Source of the DNA: Candidatus Bathyarchaeota archaeon
GTDB lineage: Archaea > Thermoproteota > Bathyarchaeia > RBG-16-48-13 > GCA-020355125
DNA length: 21,796 nucleotides
Assembly (NCBI GenBank): GCA_026014905.1
Contig: JAOZHK010000110.1
Location: 1-21,796 of the forward strand
Direction of reading: 5' to 3'
Numbering within the stretch: the stretch's first letter is position 1; each line of letters starts with the position of its first letter. The notes beneath the pieces were generated by a model. It worked only from the letters and a program-made list of their open reading frames with translations, made no database searches and was not told the DNA's origin. The position numbers and the translations under genes are program-made. Positions 4,930 through 21,796 of this stretch are shown here, in pieces.

Positions 4930-6108
4930 GTGAGAAACATTTTGGATGAATTCCATCATCGCTTCAGTGATCGAATACAATTAATTCGCCCCTCAGGTAT
5001 TCGAAAACTCTTTGATATTGCGCAGCAGATGGATAATGTCATCAGTCTAGGAATTGGGGAGCCAGATTTTAATACACCGACTCATATCACAACTGCAGCA
5101 ATTGCGGCAATTAACGAGGGATATACCCACTATACCCCCAATGCAGGGTTTCCTGATCTACGGGAAGCCTTAGCACAGAAAGTAGCGAAGCAAAATGACT
5201 TAGCTTATCAATCGGACGAAGTGATAGTTACAAATGGGGGCTGTACGGGTGCTTTACTTCTCGCGATGCTCGCTCTTGTGAACCCAGGAGACGAAGTCAT
5301 CATCAGCGACCCGGGTTTTGTGGTCTACGATGCAGCTGTTCGCATCGCAGGTGCGATTCCAGTACCTGTCGTAGTCAAGGAAGACACTGATTTCAGGATA
5401 CTACCGGATGTCGTGGAACAACACATCACTGCAAAGACACGAGCCCTCATTCTGAACTCACCAAGTAATCCCACAGGGAGTGTACAACTTCATAAAGATC
5501 TCAAAAACCTCGCCAATCTCGCACAACAGCATAATTTTTATGTCATTTCCGATGAAGTCTACGAGAAAATGGTTTACGATGGTACAAAACATTACAGCAT
5601 CGCTTCGTTTCCTGGCATGCATGCACGAACCGTCACTGTTAACTCTTTATCAAAGACATATGCTATGACCGGATGGCGAATAGGGTACGCAACAGCGGAT
5701 CATCCGATAATTGATCAAATGATTCAACTCCAGCAATTCACCATGGTGCACGCGCCAGCCATCTCGCAACGAGCAGCTCTTGCAGCTCTCACGGGTCCCC
5801 AAGACTTTGTAGATTATATGGTTCAACGATTTGACGAGCGGCGTCATTTTCTTGTAAAAAGATTAAATGAACTTCCTCCATTTCGCTGTCCAACTCCGAA
5901 AGGAGCTTTTTATGTTTTCCCCAATATCCAAGACTCTCAGTATTCCTCAACTGAATTCGCCCAATACCTATTGAAGACCTGTAACATCGCCTGCGTTCCC
6001 GGTTCAGCATTCGGTACTCATGGAGAAGGCTACCTCCGATTAAGCTATGCTCAGCCACTAGAACAACTTAACGTTGTATGTGAACGAATTCAACACGCAC
6101 TTCAATAA
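4930..6108 (+). CDS. PLP-dependent class I/II aminotransferase (aspartate/aromatic type)
   Basis: Fold-type I aminotransferase of 392 aa that swaps the amino group between an amino acid and a 2-oxo acid. Diagnostic motifs appear in order: SGIRKLFD near the N-terminus, GIGEPDF (41-47), YTPNAGFPDLREA, NSPSNPTG (176-183), ISDEVYE (206-212), the PLP lysine K242 in SLSKTYAMTGWRIGY, and the C-terminal LRLSYA, whose Arg binds substrate carboxylate. The sequence resembles archaeal AspC-like enzymes, which accept aspartate, aromatic or branched amino acids; specificity cannot be read here. The start is GTG at 4930, with TTG at 4942 as an alternative; no strong ribosome-binding site distinguishes them. 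It heads the plus-strand group leading to Lin0512 and cupin, and would feed 2-oxo acids to the ThDP enzyme. Confidence 0.93.
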   Translation: MRNILDEFHHRFSDRIQLIRPSGIRKLFDIAQQMDNVISLGIGEPDFNTPTHITTAAIAAINEGYTHYTPNAGFPDLREALAQKVAKQNDLAYQSDEVIVTNGGCTGALLLAMLALVNPGDEVIISDPGFVVYDAAVRIAGAIPVPVVVKEDTDFRILPDVVEQHITAKTRALILNSPSNPTGSVQLHKDLKNLANLAQQHNFYVISDEVYEKMVYDGTKHYSIASFPGMHARTVTVNSLSKTYAMTGWRIGYATADHPIIDQMIQLQQFTMVHAPAISQRAALAALTGPQDFVDYMVQRFDERRHFLVKRLNELPPFRCPTPKGAFYVFPNIQDSQYSSTEFAQYLLKTCNIACVPGSAFGTHGEGYLRLSYAQPLEQLNVVCERIQHALQ

Positions 6109-6175
6109 CTGATATAGGAAATCGGAGACCATATATTTACACAATACAACTTACTGATGCTGAGGAGCCAGAAAG

Positions 6176-6571
6176 ATGCCCCAATGGAGAAAATATATTT
6201 TAGAAATCGGTGTGGGAATTGACTTACATGGCCAAGATGTCACAAAAGCCGCACAACGAGCCGTAAAAGACGCAATCAGCCATGTTAGCATGATTGGGCT
6301 GCGCGAGATCTTGCCGATTACGCAAATCGAGGATCTCGACGACTTACTTCTCGTCGATGTCACAATTGCCACTCCCTTTCCCCAGCAAGTGGACCATGCA
6401 GCCGTTTTATCAATTTTACCTGAAGGGCGACGACGGATCACAGTGGTTGAAGGGGGAATACTCTATCCCACTCCACACAATAACGATCTCCCCGCTATTC
6501 ACCCAGTTGTCACGGCAGTGGCCACTATCGTTGTTCTATTCGATATTGAAAAATCTAAAGTCACTCCCTAA
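6176..6571 (+). CDS. Lin0512 family protein of unknown function
   Basis: A 131-aa protein with the features of the Lin0512 family: ILEIGVGIDLHGQDVTKAAQ near residue 9-28 (Gly-x-Gly-x-Asp-x-His-Gly then Thr-Lys-Ala), the RAVKDAISH helix, a VDVTIATPFPQQVD strand, LPEGRR, and a VVEGGI turn. Members are small, widespread, of unproven function and often sit near metabolic enzymes. This one has a slightly extended C-terminus (FDIEKSKVTP). The start ATG is fixed by GAGGAG at 6162-6167. The gene follows the aminotransferase by 67 bases and may be co-transcribed. I would not assign a reaction. Confidence 0.8.
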   Translation: MPQWRKYILEIGVGIDLHGQDVTKAAQRAVKDAISHVSMIGLREILPITQIEDLDDLLLVDVTIATPFPQQVDHAAVLSILPEGRRRITVVEGGILYPTPHNNDLPAIHPVVTAVATIVVLFDIEKSKVTP

Positions 6572-6587
6572 TCACCATCGTACCCTA

Positions 6588-6605
6588 ACGCGAAACCTTT
6601 AAATT
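6588..6605 (+). promoter_or_regulatory. Promoter of the cupin gene with CGCG element
   Basis: CCTTTAAATT (6596-6605) is a TATA-like box 37-46 bases before the cupin ATG; ACGCGA (6588-6593) abuts it upstream, where an archaeal TFB-recognition element or an activator would sit. GTAGGAAG near 6628 could be the ribosome-binding site. Confidence 0.4.
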
Positions 6606-6641
6606 GCTGAGGTAAAAGCTAGACTGTAGGAAGTAGATAAC

Positions 6642-6983
6642 ATGATACTTGTGAAACGTGAAGATGCAAAGGAATTTTCCGTAATACCCGGAGTAGATAA
6701 TACAATTCTAGTGACAGGGGAGAAACAAATGCTAGTCCTCATTGACCTCGCACCCACCGCAGAAATACCCTTACACAACCATCATCATGAACAGATCGGA
6801 GTATGCCTACGCGGAACTGTTGAATTCCGGACTGAATCAGGTCCAGTAGTTGTTGAGGAAAACATGGCTTACCTCTTCAAATCTAATGAAAAACATGGTT
6901 GTGTTCCTCTCAGTAAGAATGGCGCCACCGTCCTCGAATCCTTTTCTCCACCCCGTGAGGATTTTCTGAAGCAAGTAGAATAG
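6642..6983 (+). CDS. Small single-domain cupin protein
   Basis: A 113-aa protein consisting of one cupin beta-barrel. Motif 1 is LHNHHHEQIGVCLRG (44-58), with H45, H47 and E50 as likely metal ligands and the closing Gly. Motif 2 includes the late His in SNEKHGCVP (H85). This matches the conserved cupin (PF07883-type) metal site. Such small cupins may be isomerases, dioxygenases, sugar- or acid-binding proteins, or regulators, so no reaction is assigned. It has its own TATA-like box and ends in a T-rich stretch, so it is probably monocistronic. There is no signal peptide; it is cytoplasmic. Confidence 0.82.
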   Translation: MILVKREDAKEFSVIPGVDNTILVTGEKQMLVLIDLAPTAEIPLHNHHHEQIGVCLRGTVEFRTESGPVVVEENMAYLFKSNEKHGCVPLSKNGATVLESFSPPREDFLKQVE

Positions 6984-9796: not shown

Positions 9797-11626
9797 TTAT
9801 GTGCTTAAGTCAACCACTCTGCTGAGTTCAGGGATTACGAAGTCAAGCTCCAGGTTTTTCAGGGTCGTACGTGTAGGAATTCCTCGGGAGTCACAACCAC
9901 GTGCAGTATACCAGGCTTGCTTATCCTCCTCAAACTGTTGCCGATCATAGAGTGCCGCCGGGGTCCCCGCTTTGGGACCTTGAGTTAACGGTTCTGTGAA
10001 GACACGTTCTGGGAGGATGTCATCTCTTTCAGGTAGTAACCCATGTTTGATGTTCCAGGCACGTTCAAGGATGATGATTCGATGTGCATATTGATTCCAT
10101 TCTTCTTGGTTAGTGAAGTACTGCCAACCAGTTGCTGCGGTTAATGCATGGCCAATTGTTTCTGGATCGAGATATCGCACATTCCGAATGCAAAGCGTTA
10201 ATCCATCAGCAATAGCAAAATTATCTTGTCCTTCAATCGTGGTCCCATAAAGATGAACTCCACCCCGATCTGACATCACATAGCAGAAGGTTTCTCGCTG
10301 ATCACGGTTATTGCCTGCACCGCCGACCCCCCATTCAACGCCTTTACAATGCATCGCAAATTTGTCAGAGTTTTGACCGACCTTTCGTGAGGCTAGGCGA
10401 ATGCCTTCAGCTAGGAGATCTCCGATGCCTTCCCGATTCACAATTTTCTTTACCATTTCGAACATGGCGTCGATATTACCCCAAGTTAATTCTACACCAT
10501 CTAAATCTTCAAGAGTTAGTAGACCTTTTTCATAGCACTCCATGACCCATGACAGGGTGTTTCCAGTTGAAATCGAGTCTAATCCCATAGCATCGAGAAA
10601 AGAGCTTAACGCATAGACTCCGTTGGGATCTGTGACCATGCAATTAGGATGGAGAAGATCGGTTGAATCATAGTCAGGGATATCAAAGGTTCCAGCCCAT
10701 GTTCCTTCTCGAATAATTCCGAGTTGATTGCAGGGCGTTGAGCATCCATAGCATCCACGATTTTTTACTCGGCATCGGCTTTCCCATTGAAGTGGGCCTC
10801 CTGTCTCAATCGCATCGCCCCAAAACGCTTCACGCCAATTTTTCAGCGGGCCAGTCGAGGAATCACTCGACGTAATATTCGCTGTCGTTGATCCCCATCG
10901 TTTTCGTCCATAAAGATATGTCGGGTCGCTTCGTAATTTATGGTAGACGATATCTTCAAGCATAAGCAGAGAATCAATATCCGCAACAGGAATCTCCAAG
11001 GTCCCGCGGACGGCAATCGCTTTCAGGTTTTTCGAACCCATCACTGCACCCCCCCCACAGCGGGACCCAGAATAAAAGAATTCTTGGTTAATACATGCAT
11101 ATCGCACCAGTTGTTCTCCTGCGGGGCCTATCTGAAGAACCCGTACATGGGGATCCACCTCTTTTTTCAAACGGACCTCTGTTTCAAAGATTGAGCTTCC
11201 CCACAAGTGTTGTGCACTCCGAATTTCCGCTTCACCATTTGAAATGAACACATAAACGGGTTTTTCGGCTTTTCCGCTCACAATAACGCCGTCAAAGCCG
11301 GCGAATTTGAGCTCGGGCCCCCAGTTTCCTCCCGTTGAAGTGTGTCCCATAAGGTTTAAATCCGTTGTAGTAGCTGCGAGGGGCGATTTAAACCGGATAA
11401 TTGTGCGATTTCCACTCAGTAGTCCTGTGAGTGGACCAGTGAAAAACATGATCTGATTCTGTGGACTGAAGCCTTGGGTTTCGGGACTCAATCGATCCCA
11501 TAACAATTTCGTCATGATTCCACGCGCACCGATCAAGCGTTGCGCGTCCAGTTCATTCATGGCAATACTTCGAGTACTGTTAGTTGACAAATCAACATCT
11601 AAGATCTTTCCAGCATATCCCTTCAT
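9797..11626 (-). CDS. Tungsten aldehyde:ferredoxin oxidoreductase (AOR family), copy 1
   Basis: 609-aa AOR-family enzyme, full length, expected to bind bis-pyranopterin tungsten and one [4Fe-4S] cluster and to oxidise aldehydes to acids with ferredoxin as acceptor. The N-terminal AOR_N domain runs from MKGYAGKILDVDLST to SRCGGGAVMGSKNLKAIAV (about 188-207). Cluster ligands C292, C295 and C299 are in CYGCSTPC; the fourth, C479, is in LTLCIRN. These match the Pyrococcus AOR spacing. The segment that reads PEYE in most relatives is PDYD here (about 317-320), replacing a conserved active-site Glu by Asp. I chose ATG 11626 because it overlaps the ferredoxin stop as ATGA, with GGAAGGTGG just upstream; GTG 11635 is a longer alternative. 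The overlap couples it to its ferredoxin subunit. Substrate unknown. Confidence 0.93.
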   Translation of the reverse strand: MKGYAGKILDVDLSTNSTRSIAMNELDAQRLIGARGIMTKLLWDRLSPETQGFSPQNQIMFFTGPLTGLLSGNRTIIRFKSPLAATTTDLNLMGHTSTGGNWGPELKFAGFDGVIVSGKAEKPVYVFISNGEAEIRSAQHLWGSSIFETEVRLKKEVDPHVRVLQIGPAGEQLVRYACINQEFFYSGSRCGGGAVMGSKNLKAIAVRGTLEIPVADIDSLLMLEDIVYHKLRSDPTYLYGRKRWGSTTANITSSDSSTGPLKNWREAFWGDAIETGGPLQWESRCRVKNRGCYGCSTPCNQLGIIREGTWAGTFDIPDYDSTDLLHPNCMVTDPNGVYALSSFLDAMGLDSISTGNTLSWVMECYEKGLLTLEDLDGVELTWGNIDAMFEMVKKIVNREGIGDLLAEGIRLASRKVGQNSDKFAMHCKGVEWGVGGAGNNRDQRETFCYVMSDRGGVHLYGTTIEGQDNFAIADGLTLCIRNVRYLDPETIGHALTAATGWQYFTNQEEWNQYAHRIIILERAWNIKHGLLPERDDILPERVFTEPLTQGPKAGTPAALYDRQQFEEDKQAWYTARGCDSRGIPTRTTLKNLELDFVIPELSRVVDLST

Positions 11627-12165
11627 TTTTTCCACCTTCCATTCTGCACATTTTTTTCTACGGGATAAAATTGATCCGCGATTCGTTCAGCGATCAGTTC
11701 TGGAGGTTTCGCTAATCGCTTCGAAAATCGTGAAAGAAGTAAAAAGTGCAAAACATTTGATGGACAATATCTCGCGCATTGCGGATCCCCATCACAGAGA
11801 TCACAGATCTGGGCAATCCCTGTCTGAGGATTGAAGGTTATACAGCCTCCACGTCCTGCGTCAATACAAGCTTGATTACAACGACCACATTGCGTACACA
11901 GGTCTGGATTCACCTTCATGAGGTAGGCAGCTCCGTCATAAGTCAGAGCTTCCGTAGGGCACGCGTTAACGCAGGGACGATCCTCACAATACTGACATAC
12001 AATTGGGACATCTATCGGTCCAGGATAGAATTGATACACTCTGATACGAGCAAAAGCGGGGTTATACCGCTTTTCATGACGTAAGGCACATACTTTCTCG
12101 CAAATCCGGCAGCCACTACAGCCGGGAAGATTATGATCCACATATATTTGCATTGGATTATCCAT
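11623..12165 (-). CDS. Four-cluster ferredoxin, AOR electron-transfer subunit
   Basis: 180-aa polyferredoxin of the HycB/DmsB type. Four cysteine blocks are visible: CSGCRICEKVC, CQYCEDRPCVNAC, CTQCGRCNQAC and CDLCDGDPQCARYC, giving 16 Cys and room for four [4Fe-4S] clusters. It ends with a charged tail (about 145-180). Overlapping the AOR gene by 4 bases, it is most likely the dedicated electron acceptor or beta subunit of that enzyme, passing electrons to ferredoxin or a membrane acceptor. ATG 12165 is preceded by AAGGTGA (12177-12171). GTG 12174 and ATG 12153 are alternatives, the last fitting a leaderless transcript from the TATA-like box at 12192-12181. No Tat signal is seen, so it is cytoplasmic. 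Confidence 0.9.
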   Translation of the reverse strand: MDNPMQIYVDHNLPGCSGCRICEKVCALRHEKRYNPAFARIRVYQFYPGPIDVPIVCQYCEDRPCVNACPTEALTYDGAAYLMKVNPDLCTQCGRCNQACIDAGRGGCITFNPQTGIAQICDLCDGDPQCARYCPSNVLHFLLLSRFSKRLAKPPELIAERIADQFYPVEKNVQNGRWKK

Positions 12166-12180
12166 CAAGCTCACCTTAAG

Positions 12181-12214
12181 GTATATTTTAAGAATGTGCC
12201 ATAAACTATTAAAG
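12181..12214. promoter_or_regulatory. Divergent promoter region of ferredoxin-AOR operon and GGG-terminal protein
   Basis: On the minus strand CTTAAAATATAC (12192-12181) and CTTTAATAG (12214-12206) are TATA-like; on the plus strand TATTAAAG (12207-12214) is. Only 89 bases separate the two start codons, so both directions probably fire from this stretch and may be co-regulated. Confidence 0.45.
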
Positions 12215-12254
12215 TGTTCATTTCCTCCATTCCAAGAGATTTCCTTTGGGCATC

Positions 12255-12494
12255 ATGACAACCATACAAGTCATGCGTCATCTATTAAAAGAATGGCGTC
12301 TACCAGATTCGATGACCATTTCATGGAATCCTCATAATGTTTTCGAAGTTGCGCATGCCACAGATAAGTTTCACGAATATCTTCAAGATGGCTGGATGGC
12401 ATTCCGTGATGAACCCTCTGGAAGAACGCAAATCTTCACATTTGACCCTTCGATTAATCGTATTCTCTTGATTCCGCCCTTGGGTGGAGGATAA
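12255..12494 (+). CDS. Small protein with ubiquitin-like/MoaD-like GGG C-terminus (candidate sulfur carrier)
   Basis: A 79-aa protein ending FDPSINRILLIPPLGGG at the stop codon. The IPP-x-GG(G) end closely resembles the tails of beta-grasp carriers (MoaD, ThiS, SAMP), whose terminal Gly-Gly is adenylated by an E1-like enzyme and then thiocarboxylated or conjugated. Size (MoaD is about 80 aa) and position fit: it is divergent from the ferredoxin-AOR operon, and AOR needs a pyranopterin whose dithiolene sulfur comes from a MoaD-type carrier. Against this, the N-terminal part (HATDKFHEYLQDGWMAF region) does not show a clear MoaD pattern, and no E1/MoeB gene is in the window. ATG 12255 is the natural start (TTG 12246 adds three residues). 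Gene likely; function inferred. Confidence 0.6.
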   Translation: MTTIQVMRHLLKEWRLPDSMTISWNPHNVFEVAHATDKFHEYLQDGWMAFRDEPSGRTQIFTFDPSINRILLIPPLGGG

Positions 12495-14321: not shown

Positions 14322-14338
14322 CGCGCAAGGCTTAAATG
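14322..14338 (+). promoter_or_regulatory. Promoter of the second AOR gene with CGCG element
   Basis: CTTAAATG (14331-14338) is a TATA-like box that would start transcription near 14360, a short leader before ATG 14384. CGCGC (14322-14326) sits immediately upstream, the same order seen before the cupin gene and the ThDP enzyme gene. Confidence 0.4.
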
Positions 14339-14383
14339 ATCAACATTGCTATCATTCCACCACGGATGAATGAGGGTTCGAAA

Positions 14384-16219
14384 ATGGTTTTTGGATATGC
14401 TGGGAAATTTTTACGCGTCAATCTATCCACCGAGAAAGTAACGCATCAAGTTTTCGATGAAACTAACCTAAGAAGCCATTTAGGTGGCACAGCACTTGGT
14501 GTTAAAATCTTATATGACGAAGTTGATCCCGCCATTTCATGGAGTGATCCCTCGAACCGTATCATTTTAGCTTCAGGGCCCCTTGGAGGAACAATAATTC
14601 CAGGAACTGGTACTTTTTCCTTAGTCACCAAAGGAGCCTTAACAAATGGCTGTACTTCTGTCCAGGCGAATGGCCTCTTTGGGGCGTATCTAAAATTTTC
14701 AGGATATGACGGGATCGTCATTGAGGGGACAGCTAAGCGATGGCTTTACCTCAATATTTTAGAAGATGATGCTGAGTTACGAAATGCAAGTCATCTGCTA
14801 CGCCGGGATACATACGAAACGGATGACATGATTAAACAGGATCTAAAAAAAACTGATCGTGAAATGAGTGTGGTCTCTATTGGACCCGCTGGTGAAACTA
14901 AATGTTTACCTGCAGGTGTTTTTGAACGAAAAGGCCATTCCGCATCACATAACGGACCAGGAGCAGTCATGGGTTCCAAGCGATTAAAAGCCATAGCCGT
15001 TTCGCAGGGCTCCCATCGCGTTGAAGTCCAGCATCCTGAACGGGTTAAAAAAGTTGCTGCTATTATCCGTGAAAATGCTTTAAACTTTCGTGGAACTGTA
15101 GGAGGTGTTCACGACACCTATAAACGTAATAATGGAGTTCTCCCCATTAAAAATTATACGACTAACCTCTGGGATATTGATGACACAAAGCTTACTCGCT
15201 ACAGTGAGCCAAGTATACGTGAACGATATCAGCCACGGCCAAATCCCTGTTGGGCATGTCCTGCTACACATAGTACAATGATGACCATTCCTGAAGGTCC
15301 TTATGCAGGTACGGTTATTGAAGAACCTGAATACGAGCAATTAGCTGCGATGGGTCCCGTTATAGATGTAAGGGATGTTGATCAAGCTGCAATGCTTGGG
15401 AGTGTCTGTGACCGCCTAGGATTCGATACGAATGAAATGGGATGGATTCTCGGCTGGGTCATAGAATGTTACGAACGTGAACTCCTATCTAAAGAAGACT
15501 TAGGCGGTCTTGACATGACCTGGGGTAACGCGGAAGCAGCTCGACAACTCATGTACATGATCGCTCATCGTCAAGGCTTTGGCGACATTCTAGCTGAGGG
15601 CATCATGCGTGCCTCCCAGCAATTTGAAGGAGAAGCTGCTCGTGCAGCAATATACACGCTAAAAGGTAATTCGCCTCGAGGTCACGATCACCGGACTGGA
15701 TGGGGAGAAATGTTTGACACAGCCGTCTCCAATACAGGTACAATTGAAACTCATACCATACTCTCTGCCCAATCTCCCTATAACGCCGCTGCAGGCAACC
15801 CACAAGGTACCTTAGAAGGTGTGGCGCTAACAAAAGGAATCAGCATCTTTGTAGATTCACTCGGTAATTGTCGTTTCCCATCAGGATTAAACCATGCTCT
15901 TCTTACGGAAGCTGCAGCCGCAATCACCGGTTGGAACTTAACTCTTGAAGAAACGAAGCAAATAGGATTACGCGCTGTCAACCTTATGAAAGTGTTCAAC
16001 CTTCGTGCGGGAATATGCAAAGACGTTGACGCTCCCTCCTCTCGATATGGCTCAACACCTGTCGACGGCCCAACACAAGGAATTGGCATCGCTAAGCACT
16101 GGGATGACATGCTACGAAGCTATTATACCTTAATGGGCTGGGAGGTTGAGACCGGGAAACCTTTGCCTAAGACATTGGGAGCACTTGGCTTGAATCACAT
16201 CATTAGAGACATTTGGTAA
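14384..16219 (+). CDS. Aldehyde:ferredoxin oxidoreductase family protein, copy 2, with Cys-to-His cluster substitution
   Basis: 611-aa AOR-family protein, full length: AOR_N begins FGYAGKFLRVNLST, NGPGAVMGSKRLKAIAV marks the end of the pterin-binding N-domain, and DLGGLDMTWGN plus the C-terminal helices follow. The cluster motif is CWACPATH: C289 and C292 are present, but the third ligand position, Cys in Pyrococcus AOR (C295), is His296. The fourth, C496 in SLGNCRFP, is kept. The active-site-region Glu in EPEYEQL is also kept. The start ATG 14384 is chosen for GAGGG at 14372-14376; the 16 residues from 14336 look like untranslated leader. No ferredoxin gene is attached, unlike copy 1. It may carry a His-ligated cluster or none, and may use a different substrate. 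It converges with the D-aminoacylase-type gene across 12 bases. Confidence 0.9.
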   Translation: MVFGYAGKFLRVNLSTEKVTHQVFDETNLRSHLGGTALGVKILYDEVDPAISWSDPSNRIILASGPLGGTIIPGTGTFSLVTKGALTNGCTSVQANGLFGAYLKFSGYDGIVIEGTAKRWLYLNILEDDAELRNASHLLRRDTYETDDMIKQDLKKTDREMSVVSIGPAGETKCLPAGVFERKGHSASHNGPGAVMGSKRLKAIAVSQGSHRVEVQHPERVKKVAAIIRENALNFRGTVGGVHDTYKRNNGVLPIKNYTTNLWDIDDTKLTRYSEPSIRERYQPRPNPCWACPATHSTMMTIPEGPYAGTVIEEPEYEQLAAMGPVIDVRDVDQAAMLGSVCDRLGFDTNEMGWILGWVIECYERELLSKEDLGGLDMTWGNAEAARQLMYMIAHRQGFGDILAEGIMRASQQFEGEAARAAIYTLKGNSPRGHDHRTGWGEMFDTAVSNTGTIETHTILSAQSPYNAAAGNPQGTLEGVALTKGISIFVDSLGNCRFPSGLNHALLTEAAAAITGWNLTLEETKQIGLRAVNLMKVFNLRAGICKDVDAPSSRYGSTPVDGPTQGIGIAKHWDDMLRSYYTLMGWEVETGKPLPKTLGALGLNHIIRDIW

Positions 16220-21667: not shown

Positions 21668-21761
21668 TTGCTATCTGTGGGGGAGCTGGGTGCTACCCGG
21701 CTGAGAGGATGGCGTGACCATCGACCCATTGAACCTGATCCAGATAATGCTGGCGGAGGAA
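21668..21761 (+). promoter_or_regulatory. TPP (thiamine diphosphate) riboswitch, THI element
   Basis: All signature parts occur in order: GGGGAGC, the P3 hairpin CTGGGT-GCT-ACCCGG, the invariant CTGAGAGG that binds the pyrimidine end, a P3a hairpin GATGG-CGTGA-CCATC, GACCC (P2 3' strand), TTGAACCTGATC, the P5 hairpin CCAG-ATAATG-CTGG with the conserved ATAATGC, and GCGGAGGAAA. The Shine-Dalgarno GGAGG (21755-21759) is within the conserved 3' end of the aptamer, 7 bases before the start codon, so TPP binding would hide it and block translation. No P1 closing helix could be drawn with confidence. Confidence 0.95.
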
Positions 21762-21766
21762 AATGC

Positions 21767-21796
21767 ATGTCTGAACGCTATGTCACAGCATCGGAG
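21767..21796 (+). CDS. TPP-riboswitch-controlled gene, partial (first 10 codons)
   Basis: ATG 21767 starts MSERYVTASE and runs off the window. The earlier ATG at 21763 meets a stop after three codons, so 21767 is the start, 7 bases after GGAGG. Control by a TPP riboswitch means the product almost certainly makes or imports thiamine or its precursors; ten residues do not identify it. Confidence 0.75.
   Translation, partial: MSERYVTASE

Follow-up and report, generated by a model that had tools for sequence, protein, structure and literature searches.

The stretch of DNA considered here (the window) is the 21,796 nucleotides of contig JAOZHK010000110.1 in assembly GCA_026014905.1, assigned to a Candidatus Bathyarchaeota archaeon; the Bathyarchaeia are known mainly from metagenomes. 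On the forward strand, at 12246..12494, lies the gene for a small protein that ends in IPPLGGG, and it is transcribed away from the genes for a ferredoxin-like protein and an aldehyde ferredoxin oxidoreductase (AOR). The protein is probably a small ubiquitin-like (beta-grasp), MoaD-like sulfur carrier that serves the tungstopterin of the divergently encoded AOR. Its status as a candidate carrier comes from the translation, the starts and tails of its homologues, an AF2 model, and the ratio of nonsynonymous to synonymous substitution (dN/dS). A preliminary description of the window had proposed a carrier of this kind, and that reading is supported by those of its proposed checks that were run. 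To our knowledge, there has been no experiment on this family of proteins with a Gly-Gly (GG) tail.

Translation of the open reading frame (ORF) at 12255-12494 (+) gives 79 residues, with LLIPPLGGG directly before the stop codon, exactly as first described. Many homologues begin with MG[EVK]M. The matching position in the window is an in-frame TTG at 12246, which makes a length of about 82 amino acids (82 by count from that TTG) more probable than one of 79, the shorter form being the one that starts at ATG 12255. The divergent gap had been given as 89 bases, which holds from the ferredoxin start at ATG 12165 to 12255; with the TTG start, it is probably 80 bases.

The single window sequence found 12 proteins, itself included, a profile search found 193 at E<=1 (the best 120 were listed), and a profile that included paralogues found 115. 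The named source organisms are Bathyarchaeota, the miscellaneous Crenarchaeota group, Thermoproteota, and Nitrososphaeria. The terminal GG, whose conservation the preliminary description had made a test of the idea, is present in 218 of the 224 family proteins fetched (the window's own among them). The control consisted of 664 stop-to-stop frames from the fetched loci, each of 150 codons or more and with overlapping loci counted separately, and 2 of them end in GG. Of the six members without an exact GG end, three have one extra residue, one has a 16-residue extension, and two are frame-lost or end before the tail. Residues beyond the GG (1, 16, or 26 of them) were noted in L047 (5800-6090), P0109, P0160, P0165, and P0202, and such members would need trimming for use as carriers. 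In the alignment of the window subfamily, glycine at positions 78-79 and proline at position 75 are found in 121 of 121 rows, the window protein being entered twice. The carrier gene did not arise as an ORF by chance. The codon pattern of loci L003, L004, and L005 clearly shows purifying selection (dN/dS 0.16-0.25); where the window gene is one of the pair, three pairs have a finite, though nearly saturated, dS and give 0.12-0.32, and the whole set consists of 15 pairs, 6 of them with saturated dS.

Existing collections of models do not recognize the family. No Pfam or NCBIfam model matches the scanned family proteins above its cut-off, the PHROGs (used without a cut-off) match them only at E 0.035 or worse, and a sequence search of the PDB with profile A5 returned six matches at E 0.2 or worse, none of them a ubiquitin-like protein. 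The single window sequence had no match among plasmids and three among phages, at E 0.3-0.8. Two records of phages or viruses and a contig from IMG/VR hold three weak relatives: one of 120 amino acids ending in QVAGG (L177, 3839-4201), one of 142 amino acids without GG (L178, 4785-5213), and one of 74 amino acids ending in LKGG (L179, 3962-4186). Neither these relatives nor their scanned neighbors match any PHROG, and the family may thus reach beyond tungsten enzymes. A further viral contig match (L001) was dropped since it consisted of the common word IFTFDP inside a different protein of 173 amino acids, and the source name of one homologue (P0069), a lipopolysaccharide-export protein, was borne out by nothing else.

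The predicted strand order is that of a beta-grasp protein. Two AF2 models, with pLDDT of 90.2 and 89.2, place strands at residues 2-6 and 24-27, a helix at 32-47, and strands at 51-56, 59-63, and 72-76 in the first, and strands at 4-9 and 14-19, a helix at 23-38, and strands at 42-47, 50-54, and 63-67 in the second. In these models, the order of two strands, a helix, three strands, and a tail is the beta-grasp order. With Foldseek, the top match of model 1 is chain B of human molybdopterin synthase (E 0.52), an 84-residue chain that is presumably the MoaD-type subunit, and the fourth match is MoaD of a MoaD/MoaE complex. By their titles, the VIA matches listed are mainly chains of Ras-binding, PB1, UBX, protein L/G, UFM1, TtuB, SAMP1, MoaD, and BubA proteins. 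The structural check proposed earlier favors the carrier reading in the predicted strand order and in the kind of match listed, with the reservation that the VIA matches of the models are weak and the correspondence of fold is approximate. The TBP-like fold, considered because of the halobacterial arCOG06308, does not occur among the structural matches listed.

The proteins covered by the Pfam ThiS model (MoaD, ThiS, SAMP, and Urm1-type) share with the family the order of strand, strand, helix, and strands, as predicted here, and a GG tail that often follows PP. They differ in that the family has no match to the profile and its hhalign alignment is limited to the tail. In hmmscan, with E limits of 0.5, 1, or 5, none of 19 family proteins matched ThiS (PF02597); elsewhere in the 12 genomes that carry the family, the same model has 66 matches with E<=0.001, and 65 of these exceed its cut-off. 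Against 22 local proteins of the MoaD/ThiS type, hhalign aligned the last 12-14 columns only (Prob 54-82); in the tail alignment shown, the two GG ends fall in the same columns. A forced global alignment gave Prob 3.5-32. The tails of two local MoaD-type proteins adjacent to AORs read IFPPLAGG (L155) and IFPPVAGG (L160), next to IPPLGGG in the family. The motifs helix-GW-A-F and F-[DN]-P are, by eye, absent from the local MoaD/ThiS set. Judged from the sequences, the resemblance of the tail to that of MoaD could be due to deep homology or to convergence.

The family is linked to tungsten enzymes by its genomic context. In the class to which the genome of L002 belongs, 12 of 256 genomes carry the family, with 24 matches in all, and since most genomes of the class lack it, though AOR is common there, the family is a lineage-limited alternative and no general requirement of AOR. 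A match to AFOR_N lies within 1.5 kb of 17 of the 24 family genes, where random placement would give 0.71 (P 1.6e-21), so the expectation that homologues adjoin AOR genes proved correct. This count takes the near-identical contigs of one genome (G002: C46/C104 and C31/C144/C145) separately and becomes 15 of 21, by subtraction, when they are collapsed; it also includes one AOR, in G207, of which just a short piece interrupted by a stop is left and which does not reach the AFOR_N cut-off. At L056 (5795-6209), an intact carrier gene stands divergent to an AOR remnant with a short N-terminal match and an in-frame stop; a carrier can outlive its AOR.

The neighborhoods read were L002-L005, L016-L023, and L046-L057. 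Seven family genes have no AFOR_N match within 1.5 kb. Of these, the carrier of G202 is two genes from an AOR, that of G003:C48 has a ferredoxin followed by the contig end, and that of G002:C145 is truncated where its contig begins. Another (G006/L049) immediately follows moaE, and a MoeB-like E1 gene and two genes of the ThiS family are also found within 6 kb of it. The one in G034 (L054) is beside a three-subunit molybdenum hydroxylase of the xanthine-dehydrogenase type, and the one on G003:C97 (L021) is beside a TupA-TupB-WtpC tungstate transporter, named from best NCBIfam matches that are below the equivalog cut-offs. Near the carrier at G005:1267951, there is no AOR, MoaE, ThiS-family, or ThiF-family match. 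The linkage to AOR is thus far above chance, and the alternative neighbors are again related to molybdenum or tungsten in three cases, one each. Both MoaE and ThiF-family matches are found in 11 of the 12 genomes, MoaE each time as a single match. The same 12 genomes have 97 AFOR_N matches, up to 18 per genome, and three of them (G001, G002, and G005) have 13-18 each.

The family appears to take the place of MoaD at the AORs it accompanies. Within 1.5 kb, a family gene accompanies 17 of the 97 AOR matches and a ThiS-family gene another 20; no match is accompanied by both kinds and 60 by neither, and this mutual exclusion is as expected for interchangeable carriers. Zero overlap has a chance of P 0.013 over all genomes together and of 0.008 with stratification by genome; these values are modest and uncorrected, take a fixed AOR gene length, ignore contig ends, and are based on Pfam ThiS matches, which omit three small GG-ended MoaD-like ORFs adjoining AORs (L115, L123, and L154). 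In a quick AOR tree without bootstrap (89 ORFs of at least 340 amino acids, which leaves out shorter ones such as the AORs of L016, L056, L105, and L107), the window AOR (9797-11635) falls in a clade of six with a carrier in 6/6 (SH-aLRT 100); its nearest AOR found is that of L051, at 80% identity. The second AOR of the window (14336-16219) belongs to a clade of 14, of which 9 have an adjacent carrier, and the family is also found with the AOR of L052 and two genes from that of L057. Labels in the tree were set by hand, with L123 and L154 scored as ThiS-type. Because the carrier occurs at several positions in the tree, the family is not a marker of, or tied to, one AOR lineage; it occupies the place that ThiS/MoaD genes hold beside other AORs.

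MoaD and ThiS proteins are adenylated at their terminal glycine and carry sulfur as a thiocarboxylate. By analogy, an E1-type enzyme (ThiF/MoeB) would adenylate the C-terminal glycine of the carrier, and a sulfur donor would convert the adenylated form to a thiocarboxylate. Within MoaE, the sulfur would next be handed over by the flexible PPLGGG tail, forming the dithiolene of the pyranopterin, which would go on to become the tungsten cofactor for the AOR on the opposite strand. We infer E1 activation, thiocarboxylate formation, docking to MoaE, and a preference for the neighboring AOR from what is established for MoaD and ThiS. A bolder version is tentative and rather doubtful: in some Bathyarchaeia, a separate beta-grasp lineage with a GG tail, not recognizably derived from MoaD/ThiS and with relatives in phages, would have taken over sulfur delivery to tungstopterin. 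Every AOR isoenzyme or group would then have a carrier of its own, and the supply of cofactor would be routed to one enzyme at a time via a single shared MoaE.

Other functions can be considered for a small protein with such a tail. One could imagine a ubiquitin-like modifier of the SAMP/Urm1 kind, its tail conjugated to lysines, perhaps of the AOR or ferredoxin, to control assembly or turnover. The conserved GG and the presence of ThiF-family matches, which all but one of the 12 genomes have, suit a modifier as well as a carrier, the same ubiquitin-like proteins of Thermococcus kodakarensis are described as serving in both roles (PMC11323500), and the members with residues after the GG would require trimming. 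Modifiers of this kind are removed from their targets by a JAMM peptidase, and Prok-JAB (PF14464) matches were found in 5 of the 12 genomes; however, the other seven have none, none of the 11 matches is within 50 kb of a carrier gene, and the identified neighbors (AOR, moaE, molybdenum hydroxylase, and tungstate transporter) indicate cofactor supply, which makes a modifier unlikely.

An AOR-specific maturation chaperone or small subunit, which binds the apo-AOR and passes on the finished cofactor with the GG as a docking tail free of sulfur, is about equally improbable. It would account for the tight pairing with individual AOR genes (the clade with 6/6 is an example) and for a sequence that cannot be recognized as MoaD, and the MoaD-like AorD/AorE of Aromatoleum are termed putative maturation factors in PMC6365974. 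Yet moaE is the neighbor of one member, and that of another is a molybdenum hydroxylase outside the AOR type; to these contexts, cofactor synthesis is the better fit. Moreover, AORs with the family are without a ThiS-family neighbor and vice versa, as for interchangeable carriers. Least likely is a role that has nothing to do with sulfur for the cofactor, for example in regulation or in the coupling of electron transfer between ferredoxin and AOR, with the GG a coincidence. The phage relatives, one archaeal gene in a neighborhood without recognized molybdenum or tungsten genes, and the approximate match of the fold would agree with it, but an exact C-terminal GG kept in nearly all members and three non-AOR contexts that are again related to these metals would not.

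The idea of a dedicated carrier for AOR is not new. In 2006, Iyer, Burroughs and Aravind (PMC1779556) suggested that MoaD proteins linked to AOR serve in the synthesis of the tungsten cofactor, and the AOR operon of Aromatoleum has two MoaD-like genes, AorD/AorE (PMC6365974). As described in these sources, the AOR-linked MoaD resembles the present family in that the gene adjoins AOR and a molybdopterin role is proposed, and theirs are often near MoeB and occasionally MoaE. They are recognized as MoaD sequences, whereas the family is unrecognized by Pfam ThiS and NCBIfam and has its own conserved W/F/G/A/F core. Also, the family is often divergently transcribed, unlike the AOR-linked MoaD described there, and no AOR match in the 12 genomes has both kinds within 1.5 kb. 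In T. kodakarensis, UblB (TK2118) is involved in tungsten-cofactor synthesis and UblC (TK1065) adjoins AOR (PMC11323500). Both are archaeal with a terminal di-glycine, like the family, and UblC shares its place beside AOR; they are put in the MoaD family by that source, and by this description, the present family is set apart from them. Another archaeal group with a GG terminus outside the MoaD/ThiS group is arCOG06308, which PMC2948915 describes as limited to Halobacteria and TBP-like; since the VIA matches listed for the family models are mainly beta-grasp structures, the two are set apart on that description.

No description of the family itself was found in the open literature by titles and the starts of abstracts, subscription journals being mostly outside this scope. 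The claim of a new family unlike ordinary MoaD stands as regards the Pfam and NCBIfam profiles, none of which matches above its cut-off, and gives way as regards the dedicated AOR carrier, a concept that dates from 2006. A GG-tailed carrier beside AOR is of a known kind. As far as searched, the novelty lies in the family that would fill this role, which is unclassified and either very diverged or separate, and in the mutual exclusion between it and MoaD.

The ferredoxin-AOR pair on the opposite strand is as first described. The AOR, at 9797..11635 (-), is a tungsten-type enzyme of 612 amino acids (Pfam AFOR_N 2.4e-62 and AFOR_C 3.2e-81), and the ferredoxin-like protein, at 11623..12174 (-), has 4Fe-4S dicluster domains (Pfam Fer4_7, E 7.5e-10) and probably starts at ATG 12165. 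The divergent intergenic region between them and the carrier gene is at 12166..12245. This layout is repeated in L002, L003, L004, L046, and L051, and the short contig L005 has the carrier and ferredoxin at its end; a comparable ferredoxin partner was found in L002-L005 by reading and in L046 and L051 by phmmer. The second AOR, at 14336..16219 (+) by Pfam AFOR_N/AFOR_C and the tree, has no adjacent carrier and adjoins an MlrC/M81 gene; around the two AORs of the window, one family member with a GG end was found. About 3 kb past the first AOR, at 4930-6983, there is a cluster of aminotransferase, Lin0512-family, and cupin genes. By eye, the cluster is again beside the carrier in L005 (1039-4996), and a cupin and Lin0512 are also present in L004 (18324-19319). 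These neighbors suggest a context of amino-acid breakdown for the AOR at 9797-11635. A thiamine pyrophosphate (TPP) riboswitch (RF00059) at 21669-21778 (+), with 62.6 bits against a cut-off of 54.3, is the sole Rfam report in the window, and its downstream target gene would fall outside; no RNA of the molybdenum or tungsten cofactor (Moco/Tuco) type is above the Rfam cut-off in the window.

If the carrier reading is true, an unannotated family with a GG tail would join the ubiquitin-like repertoire, and the role of MoaD could be filled by a sequence that the scanned models do not recognize. Genome annotation would then be overlooking part of tungsten-cofactor synthesis, and the family would allow a direct test of enzyme-specific carriers.
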